Shown: one piece after another, positions 12,926 through 32,540 of the stretch
Layout: each line of letters starts with the position of its first letter
Numbering within the stretch: position 1 is the first letter of the stretch
Assembly (NCBI GenBank): GCA_900114805.1
Contig: FOZN01000002.1
Coordinates: forward strand, 310,001-374,000
DNA length: 64,000 bases
Origin: Agrococcus baldri
GTDB lineage: Bacteria > Actinomycetota > Actinomycetes > Actinomycetales > Microbacteriaceae
Direction: 5' to 3'
Notes under the pieces: model-generated
What the model was told of the DNA's origin: nothing
Seen by the model: the letters and a program-made list of their open reading frames with translations, nothing else
The model's database searches: none
Program-made: the position numbers and the translations under genes

Positions 12926-15900
12926 TTGAATAAGGTCCCTTTCGGCGTCCACGACTCGCTCTTAACTGCAGAACTATTGGCTGCAATCGATTCGATGCGG
13001 CCCGGTATCGGTGAAGCTCGATTCGCCGCCCTCGAACCGGCGACGCTCTCGGACCGCTTGACCCGCCACATCTCGGGGGTCGTTCGACGCCACTTGGCAG
13101 CACTTTCGACCGACGCCGATCGCTTGGATGCCACTAACGAGCTGGTGTCTCGGCTTGAACCGGGTCTCACCGTCAGGAGGCAGGACGAGATCCTCGCCGG
13201 CGTCGTCAAACCCGTGATGGGTTTTCAAGACGTCGACGTCGACCGTCGCCCGCTCATCGGATTCCACGACAGTGCGCTCATCACGAACGCCCCGAAGGAG
13301 CCAAGCCTTGCTTCGCAACTCAACTCGGAGTTTGCGACGGCCGAGTCGATCGACCTGCTCTGTGCGTTTGTCAAGTACTCCGGAATCCGCCTGCTCGAGC
13401 GCCAGCTCCGTCGAGCGATAGAGCGCGGTGTGCCTGTCAGAGTCATCACCTCTACGTACTTGGGCGCTTCCGATGCCGCCGCGATTGAACACCTGACGAG
13501 GCTTGGGGCCACCGTCAAGGTGAACTACAACACAGCCTCGACACGGTTGCACGCGAAGGCGTGGTTGTTTGAGCGCAACGGTGCTCTGTCCACGGCGTAC
13601 ATCGGCAGCAGCAATCTGTCGTCTGCCGCGATCGTTGATGGGTTGGAGTGGAACGTTCGGCTCTCTGATTCTTCGAACCACGACCTCGTTCGCAAGTTCC
13701 GCGCGACGTTTGAGTCGTATTGGAATGATTCTGCGTTTGAGGACTACGACACAACGACGGATCGCGACCGGTTGCGGCTAGCTATTGCCCAGGCTGCTGG
13801 GGGCGAGGCGTCGCGCTTTGGCTTCGATAGTGCGATCGATGATCTCCCCGCCTTCGACATCAATCCGCTGCCGCATCAGCAGGAGATCCTGGAGGATTTG
13901 GAAGGTGAGCGCTCCCGTGGCAATCACCGGAACCTTGTCGTCGCCGCGACCGGAACTGGAAAGACGGTTGTCGCCGCGCTTGACTACCGTCTGCTTTCAG
14001 AGCAGCAGGCAGGTAGGCGCCCTCGATTGCTCTTCATCGCGCATCGTCAGGAGATTCTCCGACAGGCAAGAGCCACATTCCGCGCTGTCCTAAAGGATGG
14101 CAGTTTTGGCGAGATCCTCACTGGCGAGCTTAAGCCGACGGAGTACGAGCACGTTTTTGCGAGTGTGGCATCTCTTCATTCCAAGCACCTGAGCACTATC
14201 GATCCCAAGCAGTTTGAGATCGTCATTCTCGACGAAGCGCACCATGTCGCGGCACGGGGATGGCGACTTGCAGCCGATCACTTCGAGCACCAAGAACTGC
14301 TGGGTCTCACTGCTACTCCTGAACGCGGCGACGGCAAGTCGATCCTCGACGTGTTCGATGGCCGGATTGCTAGTGAGCTCCGGCTTTGGGATGCGCTCAG
14401 CTCCGATCTGCTCTCTCCTTTCCACTACTTCGGCATCGCTGACGATGTGGATCTATCTGGCCTCAAGTGGGCTCGCGGCGGCTACGATTCTGTGCAGCTG
14501 AGTGCTGCGCTTTCACATAACGCAGCACGAGCAGGCAAAGTCGTGGACGCCACCCGACGCTACCTTGGTGATACGTCTCGAATGCGAGCACTTGCATTCT
14601 GCGTTTCAGTTGAGCACGCAACTTTCATGGCGGAGGCTTTCACCGCGGCAGGCTTCAAAGTCGCGGCAATCGTCGCAGGCACGCCGAAGGACGTGCGCGA
14701 GCGGGCAGTGCAGCAACTTCGCCAGGGTGGCCTCCAAGCCATCTTCTGCGTCGACGTGTTTAACGAAGGCGTCGACATTCCGGAGATCGATACGGTCCTC
14801 TTCCTGCGCCCGACCGAGAGCGTGACCGTCTTCTTGCAACAGCTCGGCCGGGGCCTAAGGCGCTCTCAGGGGAAGTCCGTCCTGACCGTGCTCGATTTCG
14901 TTTCCAAGCAGTCCGACCGCTTCTCGTACGCGGATCGCTTTAGAGCACTCACCGGTGTTGGCCACAGACACGTAGTTCGCGAGATTGAAGAAGGCTTTCC
15001 TACCGCGCCACCTGGGAGTCAAATAATCCTCGACCGGGAGTCGCAGGAAACGGTACTCGCGAATGTCAAGCGTGGACTTCGCGCGTCGAAGTCTGTCATG
15101 GCCTCGGATCTTCGTGAGCTTCAGTCACCAGAGCTTGACCCCTTCCTCAGAGACAGTGGCTGGTCGATTGAAGATGTCTACCGCTCGGAAGGCACGTGGA
15201 CTGGGCTGCGGCGGCTGGCGCTCAATGACAAGAGCCCGATCGAAGAGCGAACGGCGAAGCTGCTCAAGCGCTCCCGTTCGCTGGCGCACGTTGATGACCC
15301 AGAGCGGGCTGACGCCTACTCGCGGATTCTGCGCGGTCAATCCGGATCGTACGGAGCCATGACGGAACGTGACCGGGTCTTCGCCGAAATGCTGTTCTTC
15401 AGCGTCTGGCCAGGCAACGAGAAGCAATTCACGTCATTCGAAGCGGGTCTTGCAGAGCTGCGTTCCGATCGACTGTTCGTCGACGAGAATCTCAACTTGC
15501 TGGAGGCAGCAAAGTCCGCCAGCCACGTGGGCAACAGTCCTGCGATCGAGAATCGCCTTCACCTCGTACTTTCCGTGCATGCTCGATATTCACGTGAAGA
15601 GATACTGCCGGCAATTCGCTACTCCCAGCTCGGCAGTCGGCGCCCGAACTCTATTCGCCAGGGTGTGGTTTACTCCAAGACCGAGCGGCTCGACGCGTTC
15701 ATGGTGACCCTAATGAAGGCAGAGCACCAATACTCACCGACGACGATGTACAACGACTATGCGATCAGTCCGACACTTATGCACTGGGAATCGCAAGCGG
15801 GGACGCGCGAGGACAGCCCGACGGGCCAGCGATACATCAATCATGTGGCTGAAGATTCGGCGGTAGTCCTGTTCGTTCGCGAGGAGAAGGACGGACCGAT

Positions 15901-16036
15901 TGGCACCAGTCCCTACGTCTGCATCGGTGGTGCAACTTACGTAGAGCACGAAGGCGAACTCCCCATGGCTATCAAGTGGAAACTCGATAAGGCGATGCCC
16001 ACTACACTCTTCCAGGTTGCAGCAGCCGTCAGCTAA
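12926..16036 (+). CDS. PLD-DEAD/DEAH helicase-DUF3427 protein (defence-type)
   Basis: A 1036-residue protein translated from TTG, with GAGGAG 6 nt upstream. Domain order: a helical N-terminus; a phospholipase-D-like nuclease domain with H-x-K in STRLHAKAWLFERN (about residue 209) and YIGSSNLSS after it; then an SF2 helicase core with Walker A AATGTGKTVVAA (about 340), DEAH in ILDEAHHVAARG (about 435), LTATPERGDGKS, and motif VI QQLGRGLRRSQGK (about 638). The C-terminal region of about 350 residues fits DUF3427 (HYSPTTMYNDYAISP-type stretch QYSPTTMYNDYAISPTLMHW). Such proteins combine nuclease and DNA translocase features and are common in defence islands. Codon use is less GC-rich than its surroundings. 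Convergent with a NUDIX gene 25 bp away. Confidence 0.85.
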   Translation: MNKVPFGVHDSLLTAELLAAIDSMRPGIGEARFAALEPATLSDRLTRHISGVVRRHLAALSTDADRLDATNELVSRLEPGLTVRRQDEILAGVVKPVMGFQDVDVDRRPLIGFHDSALITNAPKEPSLASQLNSEFATAESIDLLCAFVKYSGIRLLERQLRRAIERGVPVRVITSTYLGASDAAAIEHLTRLGATVKVNYNTASTRLHAKAWLFERNGALSTAYIGSSNLSSAAIVDGLEWNVRLSDSSNHDLVRKFRATFESYWNDSAFEDYDTTTDRDRLRLAIAQAAGGEASRFGFDSAIDDLPAFDINPLPHQQEILEDLEGERSRGNHRNLVVAATGTGKTVVAALDYRLLSEQQAGRRPRLLFIAHRQEILRQARATFRAVLKDGSFGEILTGELKPTEYEHVFASVASLHSKHLSTIDPKQFEIVILDEAHHVAARGWRLAADHFEHQELLGLTATPERGDGKSILDVFDGRIASELRLWDALSSDLLSPFHYFGIADDVDLSGLKWARGGYDSVQLSAALSHNAARAGKVVDATRRYLGDTSRMRALAFCVSVEHATFMAEAFTAAGFKVAAIVAGTPKDVRERAVQQLRQGGLQAIFCVDVFNEGVDIPEIDTVLFLRPTESVTVFLQQLGRGLRRSQGKSVLTVLDFVSKQSDRFSYADRFRALTGVGHRHVVREIEEGFPTAPPGSQIILDRESQETVLANVKRGLRASKSVMASDLRELQSPELDPFLRDSGWSIEDVYRSEGTWTGLRRLALNDKSPIEERTAKLLKRSRSLAHVDDPERADAYSRILRGQSGSYGAMTERDRVFAEMLFFSVWPGNEKQFTSFEAGLAELRSDRLFVDENLNLLEAAKSASHVGNSPAIENRLHLVLSVHARYSREEILPAIRYSQLGSRRPNSIRQGVVYSKTERLDAFMVTLMKAEHQYSPTTMYNDYAISPTLMHWESQAGTREDSPTGQRYINHVAEDSAVVLFVREEKDGPIGTSPYVCIGGATYVEHEGELPMAIKWKLDKAMPTTLFQVAAAVS

Positions 16037-30233: not shown

Positions 30234-30336
30234 CCGGTCAGGCTGCGGCACGAGTGCGTCCGGTCAGCCGCCGGCACCAGTGCGGGCGGCCATCCGCCGG
30301 TGCGAGTGCGACCGTTCAGGCGGCGGCGCGAGTGCG
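30234..30336. repeat. 26-bp tandem array at the 3' end of the TDT gene
   Basis: Four units, at 30234-30259, 30260-30285, 30286-30310 and 30311-30336, share CACGAGTGCG- or CGAGTGCG-like cores on the plus strand. On the coding strand the first unit encodes the last residues of the TDT protein (GRTRAAA then stop); the other three are degenerate copies of that gene tail placed beyond the stop codon. This is duplication by slippage or unequal recombination. Confidence 0.75.
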
Positions 30337-31398
30337 GCCGCTGAGCCGGCGCCCCTCGTGCACGGCCATCGCGACGAACACCAGCGCCCAGACCGCGAGC
30401 GCCACCCACAGCTCCGCGGCGCCGATCATGCCGACCACCGGCAGCTGATCGGCCTGGCCGAGGTAGATGCCGGCCACCGCATACATGCCGAGCGGGAAGA
30501 CGATGCTCCACAGGGTGGCTTCGTACTCGAGCGGAACCTTGTGGTGCCAGTGCCGCCACCAGCCGGCCGCCACCAGTGGCGGGATCAGCCAGGTCGCGAA
30601 CGCCCAGAAGGCGACCGAGACGCCCGAGATGAGGCCACGCGTGGCGGCGATCATGGGCGCGTCCGCCATCTCCAGGATGCGCGCGCCGGCCAGCACCGTG
30701 ATCGCGCACGCCCCCATCGCCACCCAGTAGGGCGCGTTCAGGTCGACCGGCCGCAGCTCGTAGAGCATCATCCGCAGCGCCACCAGCACGCCGGCGAGCG
30801 CGTAGAGGAAGATGCCCACCGACCAGCTCACCACCGCCAGCACCGCGAGCCAGTCGGCCAGCTGCGGCCCCGCCGCCGGCTGCAGCGACGCCGACGCGAC
30901 GGCGATCGACTGACTGGCGACCACCCAGATGAACCACGTGCCGTTGGCGAGCGCGACCACCGGCCGCTCGGTGCGCCCGAGCACCGCAGTCCACGGCACC
31001 ACGTAGCCCAGCAGCAGCCAGGCCAGCAGCGCCATCACCAGCAGCGCGGCGGTCGCGGCCATCCAGCCCTCCAGCGCCAGCCGCACGCCCAGCACGTTGG
31101 TGCCGGCGACGAACGTGAAGAAGCCGAAGCCGCGGCGCGGGTCGTTGAACTCGTCGAAGAACTCGGCCCGGAAGGCGAGCAGCCGCCAGACGTGCAGCAC
31201 CACCAGCAGCGCGTAAGCGATGCCGCAGATCCACGCGAGCACCATCGAGAGCACCTCGAAGCCCACCAGGTGCAGCCCGACCGAGATGATGCCGCTGCCC
31301 ATCACGAGCGCGAAGTAGCCGGGCGCGAGATCGCGCACGATGCCGCGGATGCGTCCGGGCAGCCGGGTGCCCGGCTCCCCCGCGGCGGTGGTTGCCAT
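30316..31398 (-). CDS. TDT-family (TehA/SLAC1-like) transporter
   Basis: A 360-residue protein with about ten hydrophobic segments. GIVRDLAPGYFALVMGSGII at the start, FFTFVAGTNVLGVRLALEGW in the middle and the RHWHHKVPLEYEATLWSIVF block near the end are family features of tellurite-resistance/dicarboxylate (TDT) transporters. The substrate may be an organic acid, tellurite or another anion. It lies 45 bp downstream of arsC on the same strand, but its own -10-like TAGCCT occurs just before the ATG, so it may be transcribed separately. Confidence 0.85.
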   Translation of the reverse strand: MATTAAGEPGTRLPGRIRGIVRDLAPGYFALVMGSGIISVGLHLVGFEVLSMVLAWICGIAYALLVVLHVWRLLAFRAEFFDEFNDPRRGFGFFTFVAGTNVLGVRLALEGWMAATAALLVMALLAWLLLGYVVPWTAVLGRTERPVVALANGTWFIWVVASQSIAVASASLQPAAGPQLADWLAVLAVVSWSVGIFLYALAGVLVALRMMLYELRPVDLNAPYWVAMGACAITVLAGARILEMADAPMIAATRGLISGVSVAFWAFATWLIPPLVAAGWWRHWHHKVPLEYEATLWSIVFPLGMYAVAGIYLGQADQLPVVGMIGAAELWVALAVWALVFVAMAVHEGRRLSGRTRAAA

Positions 31399-31443
31399 GC
31401 TCGCGAGGCTAGCGCGCCACGGTCGGGGCCCGGCGGGACCGAC

Positions 31444-31860
31444 TCAGCCGGCGCGCTCCGGCAGCAGCTCGGCGATCAAGGCCTCGACCCGCCCGCGGAT
31501 CTCGTCTCGGATCTCGCGCACTGCCTCGATGCCCGCGCCGGCCGGGTCGTCGAGCTCCCAGTCCTCGTAGCGCTTGCCGGGGAAGATCGGGCACGCGTCA
31601 CCGCAGCCCATCGTGACGACCGCGTCCGACGCACGCACCGCATCCGTCGTCAGCAGCTTCGGCGCGTTCGCCGCGATGTCGATGCCTTCCTCCCGCATCG
31701 CCTCGACGGCGACGGGGTTGACGCTCTCCTTCGGCGCGGAGCCTGCGGAGCGCACGTCGATGCGGTCGCCGGCGAGCGCCTGCAGATAGCCGGCGGCCAT
31801 CTGCGAGCGGCCGGCGTTGTGCACGCACACGAACAGGACGGTGGGCTTCTGGTCGGGCAT
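31444..31860 (-). CDS. arsC: Arsenate reductase (low-molecular-weight phosphatase fold)
   Basis: The 138-residue enzyme has the catalytic loop VCVHNAGRSQMAAGYL (Cys12-x5-Arg18), a second Cys pair in TMGCGDACPIFPGKRYEDWE and the Asp-Pro loop (LDDPAG). This is the class that reduces arsenate to arsenite with thioredoxin or mycothiol/mycoredoxin. ATG 31860 follows GAGGAGCGCCG. It lies downstream of a Cys-rich micropeptide gene, separated by a 12-bp hairpin, and diverges from arsR. No arsenite efflux gene (arsB/acr3) is present within the window. Confidence 0.92.
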   Translation of the reverse strand: MPDQKPTVLFVCVHNAGRSQMAAGYLQALAGDRIDVRSAGSAPKESVNPVAVEAMREEGIDIAANAPKLLTTDAVRASDAVVTMGCGDACPIFPGKRYEDWELDDPAGAGIEAVREIRDEIRGRVEALIAELLPERAG

Positions 31861-31881
31861 CGGCGCTCCTCGCGGCGGGTC

Positions 31882-31910
31882 GGTCGCTCCCGGCATCACC
31901 GGGAGCGACC
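31882..31910 (-). terminator. Hairpin between the Cys-rich peptide gene and arsC
   Basis: GGTCGCTCCCGG (31882-31893) and CCGGGAGCGACC (31899-31910) form a perfect 12-bp stem with a 5-nt loop. It lies 10 bp after the peptide stop and 22 bp before arsC. It lacks a U-tract but is stable enough to attenuate transcription or protect the upstream mRNA, so peptide and arsC levels may differ. Confidence 0.6.
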
Positions 31911-31919
31911 CGGATGGTG

Positions 31920-32000
31920 TCAGCAGCAGCTCGTCGTGCAGCACTGCTCGTCGAGCTCGGGCGGGCAGCCCAGCTCTAAGCATGTCGCGTCGGCGTTCAT
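31920..32000 (-). CDS. 26-residue Cys-rich micropeptide in the ars locus
   Basis: Too short for routine ORF calling. It reads MNADATCLELGCPPELDEQC followed by CTTSCC: six Cys in 26 residues, arranged C-x4-C-x7-CC-x3-CC. The near-perfect Shine-Dalgarno AGGAGGTGA lies 4 nt before the ATG, far better than most genes here. It is the first gene divergent from arsR, under the arsR operator, followed by a strong hairpin and arsC. The density of paired thiols suggests binding of arsenite or another soft metal, metallothionein-like, or a sensor/leader function. No family is known to me. Coding is inferred from ribosome site, start, length and composition. Confidence 0.65.
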   Translation of the reverse strand: MNADATCLELGCPPELDEQCCTTSCC

Positions 32001-32020
32001 CGTCTCACCTCCTCTCGCTT

Positions 32021-32044
32021 TGCATCGATGGTCATCGATATGCA
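32021..32044. promoter_or_regulatory. Probable ArsR operator
   Basis: TGCATCGAT (32021-32029) and ATCGATATGCA (32034-32044) form an inverted repeat with a 4-bp centre, located between the divergent arsR (ATG 32095) and micropeptide/arsC (ATG 32000). ArsR/SmtB regulators bind such 12-2-12-type dyads. A weaker half-site, CATCGA, lies at about 32059. Confidence 0.6.
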
Positions 32045-32094
32045 GTCTGCTCGCAAGCATCGACGACTGTCAATGTTCGTGGCATGCTGGAGCC

Positions 32095-32445
32095 ATGTCG
32101 ACGCTCGAGCTGCTGCCGCTGCGCGATCTGCAGGCGTGCTGCTCGCCCGTCACAGGCGAGGTGATGAGCGCCGAGCACGCCGCGAGCCTGGCCCGCACGC
32201 TGAAGGCGCTCGCCGAGCCGGCGCGCCTGCGGCTGCTGTCGATGATCGCTGCCCACGAGGACGACGAGGCGTGCGTGTGCGATCTGACCGAGCCGCTCGG
32301 CCTCTCGCAGCCGACCGTCTCGCACCACCTGAAGGTGCTCGTCGACGCCGGATTCCTCACCCGCTCGAAGCGCGGCACCTGGGCGTACTACCGGCTGGTG
32401 CCGGAGTCGCTGGGGCAGGTCTCCGCGCTGCTGACCGAGGGCTGA
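32095..32445 (+). CDS. arsR: ArsR-type arsenic-responsive repressor
   Basis: The 116-residue winged-helix repressor has Cys15-Cys16 near the N-terminus (RDLQACCSP) and Cys60/Cys62 in EACVCDL. The adjacent N-terminal Cys pair plus a further Cys matches the Corynebacterium glutamicum ArsR1-type As(III) site rather than the E. coli C-V-C-only type. DNA-recognition helix: GLSQPTVSHHLKVLVDAGFL. It binds the divergent promoter and leaves when As(III) or Sb(III) binds. Start at ATG 32095. Confidence 0.9.
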   Translation: MSTLELLPLRDLQACCSPVTGEVMSAEHAASLARTLKALAEPARLRLLSMIAAHEDDEACVCDLTEPLGLSQPTVSHHLKVLVDAGFLTRSKRGTWAYYRLVPESLGQVSALLTEG

Positions 32446-32540
32446 CGACCGCGTCCCGCGCGGCCGGCGGGTCGGTGGGCCTGTCCTGGTCATGGATCGC
32501 CGGGCAGCGATGTCGCCACCGAGTACGCCAGCCTGCTGTC

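Follow-up and report, generated by a model that had tools for sequence, protein, structure and literature searches.

A cysteine-rich micropeptide gene conserved beside arsR in Microbacteriaceae, with a putative role in arsenite binding

Introduction

An arsenate reductase encoded without an adjoining pump has long been puzzling, since it turns its substrate into something more toxic. The window analysed here, a 64-kb stretch on contig C6 of a 2.9-Mb Agrococcus genome, holds a locus of this kind: arsR and arsC are present, a search for acr3 placed none within the window, and a very short, cysteine-rich open reading frame (ORF) heads the genes divergent from arsR. Is this ORF a gene and, if so, what might its product do where arsenite would be generated? 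The original prediction had offered two answers, a thiol-rich peptide that sequesters or chaperones As(III), or a sensing leader peptide.

Results

The ORF (32000-31920, minus strand; 26 codons plus a stop) translates to MNADATCLELGCPPELDEQCCTTSCC, in which six of the 26 residues are cysteines spaced C-x4-C-x7-CC-x3-CC. A Shine-Dalgarno (SD) sequence, AGGAGGTGA (32005-32013, minus strand), stands 4 nt from its ATG and matches at six of six positions, which confirms the six-cysteine frame and near-ideal ribosome site that had been predicted. Divergent from it is arsR (32095-32445, plus strand; HTH_5, with NF033788 over its cut-off), encoding a repressor with Cys15-Cys16 and a CVC motif. The micropeptide ORF is indeed the first gene on the other side, and the operator said to lie next to it may correspond to two ATCGAT-type repeats between the two genes, to which ArsR would bind: ATCGATGACCATCGAT (32024-32039, minus strand), upstream of the SD, and CATTGACAGTCGTCGATG (32058-32075, minus strand), overlapping a -35-like TTGACA (32068-32073) that is oriented towards the peptide and may belong to its promoter. 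A consensus scan gave no sigma-70 match. Between the peptide stop and arsC, a 13-bp GC-rich hairpin without a U-tract (31910-31882, minus strand) is indeed strong; its 62-nt fold reaches -33.3 kcal/mol (z -3.5), and none of 200 shuffles was equally stable. The arsC gene itself (31860-31444, minus strand) encodes an arsenate reductase of the LMW-phosphatase fold, matching PF01451; its scores against arsenate reductase models stay under their cut-offs.

A filter for cysteine-rich ORFs similar to that used in the survey below returned five across the full 64 kb, and only 32000-31920 combined a six-of-six SD with a Cys-Cys end. The peptide matched no family in Pfam or NCBIfam at E 0.001, its sole PDB match was at E 0.83, and a plasmid search with it gave no match; an Rfam search of 31300-32500 gave a single match (E 0.69), far under the gathering score. 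The suggestion that arsenite has no local exit route is right in part: the acr3 search placed no pump gene in the window, but the genome carries an Acr3 pump at a separate ars locus (C4:616805-617791). That second locus (C4:608000-622000) is fuller: besides acr3 and arsR it has arsC in two copies, and genes for a thioredoxin system and a P-type ATPase can be made out by eye; no CC-ending micropeptide was found there. A TDT/SLAC1-family transporter gene (30316-31398, minus strand) lies co-directional and 3' of arsC in the window. We considered it as an arsenite exit route and set it aside, as it was not found in the 3-kb loci of relatives. Elsewhere in the window, a dip in GC content to 0.59-0.61 at 12-16 kb coincides with a gene (12926-16036, plus strand) for a 1036-residue protein combining PLD, helicase and DUF3427, which scores 961 bits against the PADLOC type IV methyl-directed restriction enzyme model and is likely an acquired defence gene.

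A peptide search of 99 genomes, the source genome included, found clear homologues in seven other Agrococcus genomes, and weaker matches, down to E 10, were chance-like among those inspected. ArsR matches of at least 73% identity occur in nine of 24 genomes of the genus, and the peptide occupies the same divergent position in eight of them. The ninth (G018), the only peptide-free member of the Agrococcus clade, has suffered a deletion that cuts into both arsC and arsR and fuses part of the former to the latter, the intervening DNA being gone. All eight Agrococcus peptides share C-x-ELGCP-[PA]-EL and a CC end, with a second CC pair in three and a CCC end in one. In G212 the peptide, MDAETLCFELGCPPALDQSCCSSGCC, is intact and the two repeats persist beside an arsC remnant, with arsR not found alongside. 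A further Agrococcus genome (G006) encodes an unrelated cysteine micropeptide, MDGDIELEVRGECCGDGCC (L056, 1358-1417, minus strand), divergent from an ArsR of 54% identity; an inverted repeat follows it, arsC does not adjoin, and the genome has no acr3 match. A scan for the core pattern in a collection of 84,980 genomes, blind to ars genes, gave ten matches, of which eight are real (five Agrococcus, two Curtobacterium pusillum and one Microbacterium). All eight are divergent from arsR, with arsC next in seven; the other two have neither arsR nor arsC within their 8 kb.

Apart from the peptide search and the core-pattern scan, peptides were sought near arsR or arsC in a survey centred on arsR. 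We searched 398 Microbacteriaceae genomes with ArsR and examined the best-scoring loci, down to about E 1.9e-47, namely 95 arsR-orthologue loci (nine from Agrococcus, 26 further and 60 fetched next-best stretches) from 89 genomes and 35 genera; the stretches of L175, L202 and L221 end at a contig end. ORFs in the arsR-divergent interval were retained if they had 12-45 residues, at least four cysteines making up at least 15% of the sequence, and an SD matching at four or more of six positions. An SD-led, cysteine-rich ORF of 17-27 residues with 4-10 cysteines came first in 37 of the 95 loci; for L154 (G357), which also has a longer in-frame start, the shorter, SD-led start was taken. In 34 of these 37 loci the distance from arsR is equal within 20 nt, and every one of the 37 SDs has 5-6 of the six AGGAGG matches when the filter needed only four. 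The 37 ORFs give 34 distinct sequences, for example MGCCDTDECQVLPDGSCSPDCC, MADGCCGTDASCCEGCCENGCCETSCC, MNGCCDPEEGCCEPGCC and MTDLTVCADCGCDPCCCQDDCC. Each of the 34 has CC at its end, although this was not a filter criterion; cysteine makes up 28% of residues on average (29% after Met), Asp and Glu number 154 against four Lys and Arg, and there are almost no aromatic residues. Raw counts place an [AG]TCGA[CT]-N3-6-TCGATG repeat in 32 of the 37 loci and TTGAC[AG] in 35. By eye, the end of the L121 (G324) peptide gene is tandemly repeated in frame past the stop, with Cys-Cys in each repeat, perhaps a snapshot of the Cys-Cys unit multiplying.

The peptide gene also occurs behind arsC. Eight ORFs in that position passed the filter, seven of them CC-ending and close to arsC (9-22 residues, the shortest being MDECCEGCC). 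The eighth (L183), with an SD of four in six, no CC end and a place far downstream, was set aside as chance. Carriers thus make up 44 of the 95 loci, 41 of the 89 genomes and 15 of the 35 genera, and all 44 peptides end Cys-Cys-stop. Among the matches listed, 52 ArsR loci from order-level (28) and class-level (24) searches, Microbacteriaceae among them, had no CC-ending peptide near arsR, and five cysteine-rich ORFs seen there were set aside, none ending in CC. Four Microbacteriaceae plasmid arsR loci (H1, H3, H4 and H14) have an oxidoreductase first and no micropeptide annotated in their incomplete gene table. Titles and the opening lines of abstracts, drawn mainly from the open-access literature, yielded no description of such peptides.

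Could ORFs of this length arise by chance? Dinucleotide shuffles of the arsR-divergent interval gave no ORF in any of 20 rounds, and the arsR strand put through the same filter gave one in 95 loci. Windows at 400-800 are not clean controls, since their matches are the peptides behind arsC; a single chance-like match lay at 1200-1400. Over 14 equal-length pairs, one sequence being used twice, dN/dS is about 0.26, and 0.42 with the Cys codons left out; cysteines are conserved at 83 of 84 positions and other residues at 163 of 221. The original prediction had made conservation of the cysteine pattern, start and ribosome site in related ars loci its own check, and all three are conserved. Together, the shuffles and dN/dS lead us to reject a chance ORF, and purifying selection with a conserved ribosome site confirms, at the level of sequence, a genuine conserved micropeptide gene.

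The first divergent ars-type gene is arsC in 53 of the 95 loci, with a peptide before it in 26, behind it in seven and in neither place in 20; the peptide is therefore dispensable, those 20 loci (the decayed G018 among them) having been read to 1.5 kb. An aquaporin-type gene followed by ArsC comes first in two loci, both with a peptide. In these (L116 of G333 and L168 of G041) the start of the aquaporin-type gene overlaps the end of the micropeptide, and in L116 the aquaporin-type gene and ArsC share one long open frame; channel-ArsC fusions are known from actinobacteria. No ars-type gene was found within about 1.5 kb in 11 loci, nine of which carry the peptide. These nine stand-alone loci come from five genera and fall in several places among arsC-bearing relatives on a weakly resolved ArsR tree. 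Neither the 16 loci with acr3 first nor the 13 with an ArsO-like oxidoreductase first has a peptide, and reading 20 of them (all 16 acr3-first, four of the 13 oxidoreductase-first) to about 3.5 kb upstream of arsR revealed none; ten Agrococcus acr3 loci, four of them in peptide-carrying genomes, likewise had none.

At the level of loci this exclusion of acr3 and peptide gives a Fisher p of 1.4e-5, on related sequences. Genome-wide, acr3 exceeds its cut-off in seven of 41 carriers versus 18 of 48 non-carriers (Fisher p 0.04, uncorrected for kinship), and among carriers in five of eight Agrococcus, the source genome included, versus two of 33 others. On the ArsR tree (95 rows, 114 columns, weakly resolved) the peptide-first loci are clustered, needing five changes against 29.5 in shuffles. 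Well-supported branches offer only three independent acr3-versus-peptide pairs, too few to separate the exclusion from shared ancestry; striking as the pattern is, ancestry may be all that lies behind it. ArsB was searched for in 70 genomes, of which 43 exceeded Pfam's low cut-off; the matches were weak and scattered, and none passed 102 bits against a model of 423 positions, so other pumps are possible.

The hairpin invites a different reading, in which the peptide is a cysteine-sensing leader: arsenic would deplete thiols, ribosomes would slow on the terminal Cys codons, the hairpin would be blocked, and transcription or translation would extend to arsC. The Cys pair always adjoins the stop, a crude finder (which reported only part of the 13-bp stem in the window) placed a hairpin at most 14 nt from the stop in 23 of the 37 peptide-first loci, and short poly-Cys ORFs are described as cysteine-responsive attenuators in mycobacteria (Canestrari 2020, as relayed in PMC9094748 and PMC13236596). 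However, the peptide lies upstream of a putatively regulated ars gene in only 28 of the 44 loci. In the nine stand-alone loci no ars gene was found downstream, and in the seven loci with arsC ahead of the peptide no further ars-type match appeared in the next 2.9 kb or so. We therefore reject a leader for ars genes, the second answer of the original prediction, as the general explanation. Purifying selection on the non-Cys residues also speaks against a leader, as do the five of 37 loci in which the finder saw no hairpin. The finder placed hairpins in stand-alone loci too. Some stand-alone and behind-arsC loci do have co-directional non-ars ORFs further down, for which a leader role is possible. 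All in all, we consider the cysteine-sensing leader improbable.

The 60 nt after the behind-arsC peptides fold at -21.9 kcal/mol or better in six of seven cases. The stand-alone, behind-arsC and G212 peptides lead us to read the hairpin as a putative terminator of the peptide gene, with read-through into arsC. In Bacillus sp. CDB3, as excerpted from PMC4562236, a comparable intercistronic hairpin had a measured lowering effect on distal ars expression.

Discussion

We think it rather probable that the ORF stands first in a transcript under ArsR control and that its product, a free, acidic micropeptide packed with cysteines, binds As(III) via its vicinal cysteines. This reading draws its sequence-level support from the ORF and its ribosome site, purifying selection, near-invariant cysteines, the terminal Cys-Cys, the fixed place and retention without an adjoining arsC; translation, control by ArsR, termination at the hairpin, the identity of the ligand as As(III) and what becomes of the complex are its presumed parts. 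As(III) binds as a tris-thiolate at sites of the type that a vicinal Cys pair forms with a third Cys nearby, and the ArsR of the window has Cys15-Cys16 as in the ArsR of Corynebacterium glutamicum, which we take to be the arsenic-site motif. For these two reasons we favour buffering or hand-over of As(III), and the thiol-rich binder of the original prediction appears to be the best-supported reading of the conserved gene. Arsenic entering the cell would, as As(III), release ArsR, and the peptide would be made. Its Cys-Cys pairs would capture arsenite produced by ArsC, and the captured arsenite might be buffered, or else passed on to mycothiol, returned to ArsR or delivered to a pump whose gene lies elsewhere. 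A terminator behind the peptide gene that is partly read through would yield peptide in excess over ArsC.

Might the peptide instead serve ArsC as a thiol reductant, replacing or assisting mycoredoxin by reducing the arsenate-mycothiol adduct or the ArsC disulfide? Its company would suit such a role, given that arsC, or an aquaporin-type gene with ArsC, neighbours the peptide in 35 of the 44 loci, and that arsC was found elsewhere in all ten stand-alone genomes searched, G006 included. By eye, however, the variants share no CxxC redox motif; they seem too short and variable for a fold, and the 20 peptide-free arsC-first loci show that the link to arsC is not obligate. We regard this role as unlikely.

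Genomic context alone singles out arsenic, and cysteine-rich peptides may bind many soft metals. The peptide could accordingly be a general metallothionein for Zn, Cu, Cd, Sb or Bi that stands under ArsR by happenstance, and its high cysteine content and near lack of aromatics are metallothionein-like. Against this, the ars-blind scan, the one part of the survey that can bear on the question, met arsR loci in eight of its ten matches, and the neighbouring ArsR has the presumed arsenic-site cysteines. Like the reductant role, a soft-metal peptide of this kind seems a poor prospect. Short, hypervariable, cysteine-rich ORFs with a fixed C-terminus would also suit the precursor of a metallophore or of a modified peptide of the RiPP type. 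This is very improbable: what comes next is arsC or an aquaporin-type gene with ArsC, or else no ars gene follows, and no recurrent modifying enzyme was noticed.

Returning to the As(III)-binding micropeptide, we tentatively suggest, with considerable reserve, that Microbacteriaceae evolved a form of arsenic resistance built on hypervariable micropeptides, 9-27 residues long and encoded by genes under ArsR, which bind As(III) and replace the pump in pump-less arsR-arsC loci, a ribosomal counterpart of phytochelatins. A family of thiol peptides at such loci in many genera of one bacterial family would be a direct possible answer to the puzzle of the reductase without a pump. The variants form a natural collection of candidate minimal As(III) ligands, and they illustrate that position and composition can reveal a hypervariable micropeptide where sequence search fails.

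How do these micropeptides compare with known systems? Mycobacterial poly-cysteine leader ORFs (Canestrari 2020) share with them a short cysteine-rich ORF at the head of an actinobacterial operon, but those are, by the title of that study, leaderless and cysteine-responsive, whereas the micropeptides are SD-led, with selection on their non-Cys residues, and often have no ars gene behind them or stand behind arsC. The bacterial metallothioneins SmtA/BmtA and mycobacterial MymT are likewise small, rich in cysteine (the metallothionein-like range of about 15-30% fits the micropeptides), poor in aromatic residues and regulated by metal stress; the micropeptides are half their size or less, acidic, CC-ending and located in ars loci, and the window peptide has no metallothionein profile match. 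The metallochaperone ArsD also combines an As(III)-responsive operon with vicinal Cys pairs. ArsD, however, has a fold and about 120 residues, and its partner is the pump ATPase ArsA; the micropeptides have 9-27 residues, and the Pfam and NCBIfam searches gave the window peptide no match to the ArsD fold. CCPGCC and CCXXCC tetracysteine tags have two vicinal Cys pairs 2-3 residues apart, an arrangement that MDECCEGCC presents in nature; the tags are designed and bind organic biarsenical dyes, whereas the spacing and number of cysteines vary among the micropeptides and As(III) is their putative ligand. Phytochelatins are acidic thiol peptides that bind As(III), as the micropeptides are predicted to do, and the difference is one of manufacture: phytochelatins are made enzymatically, the micropeptides are encoded by genes.
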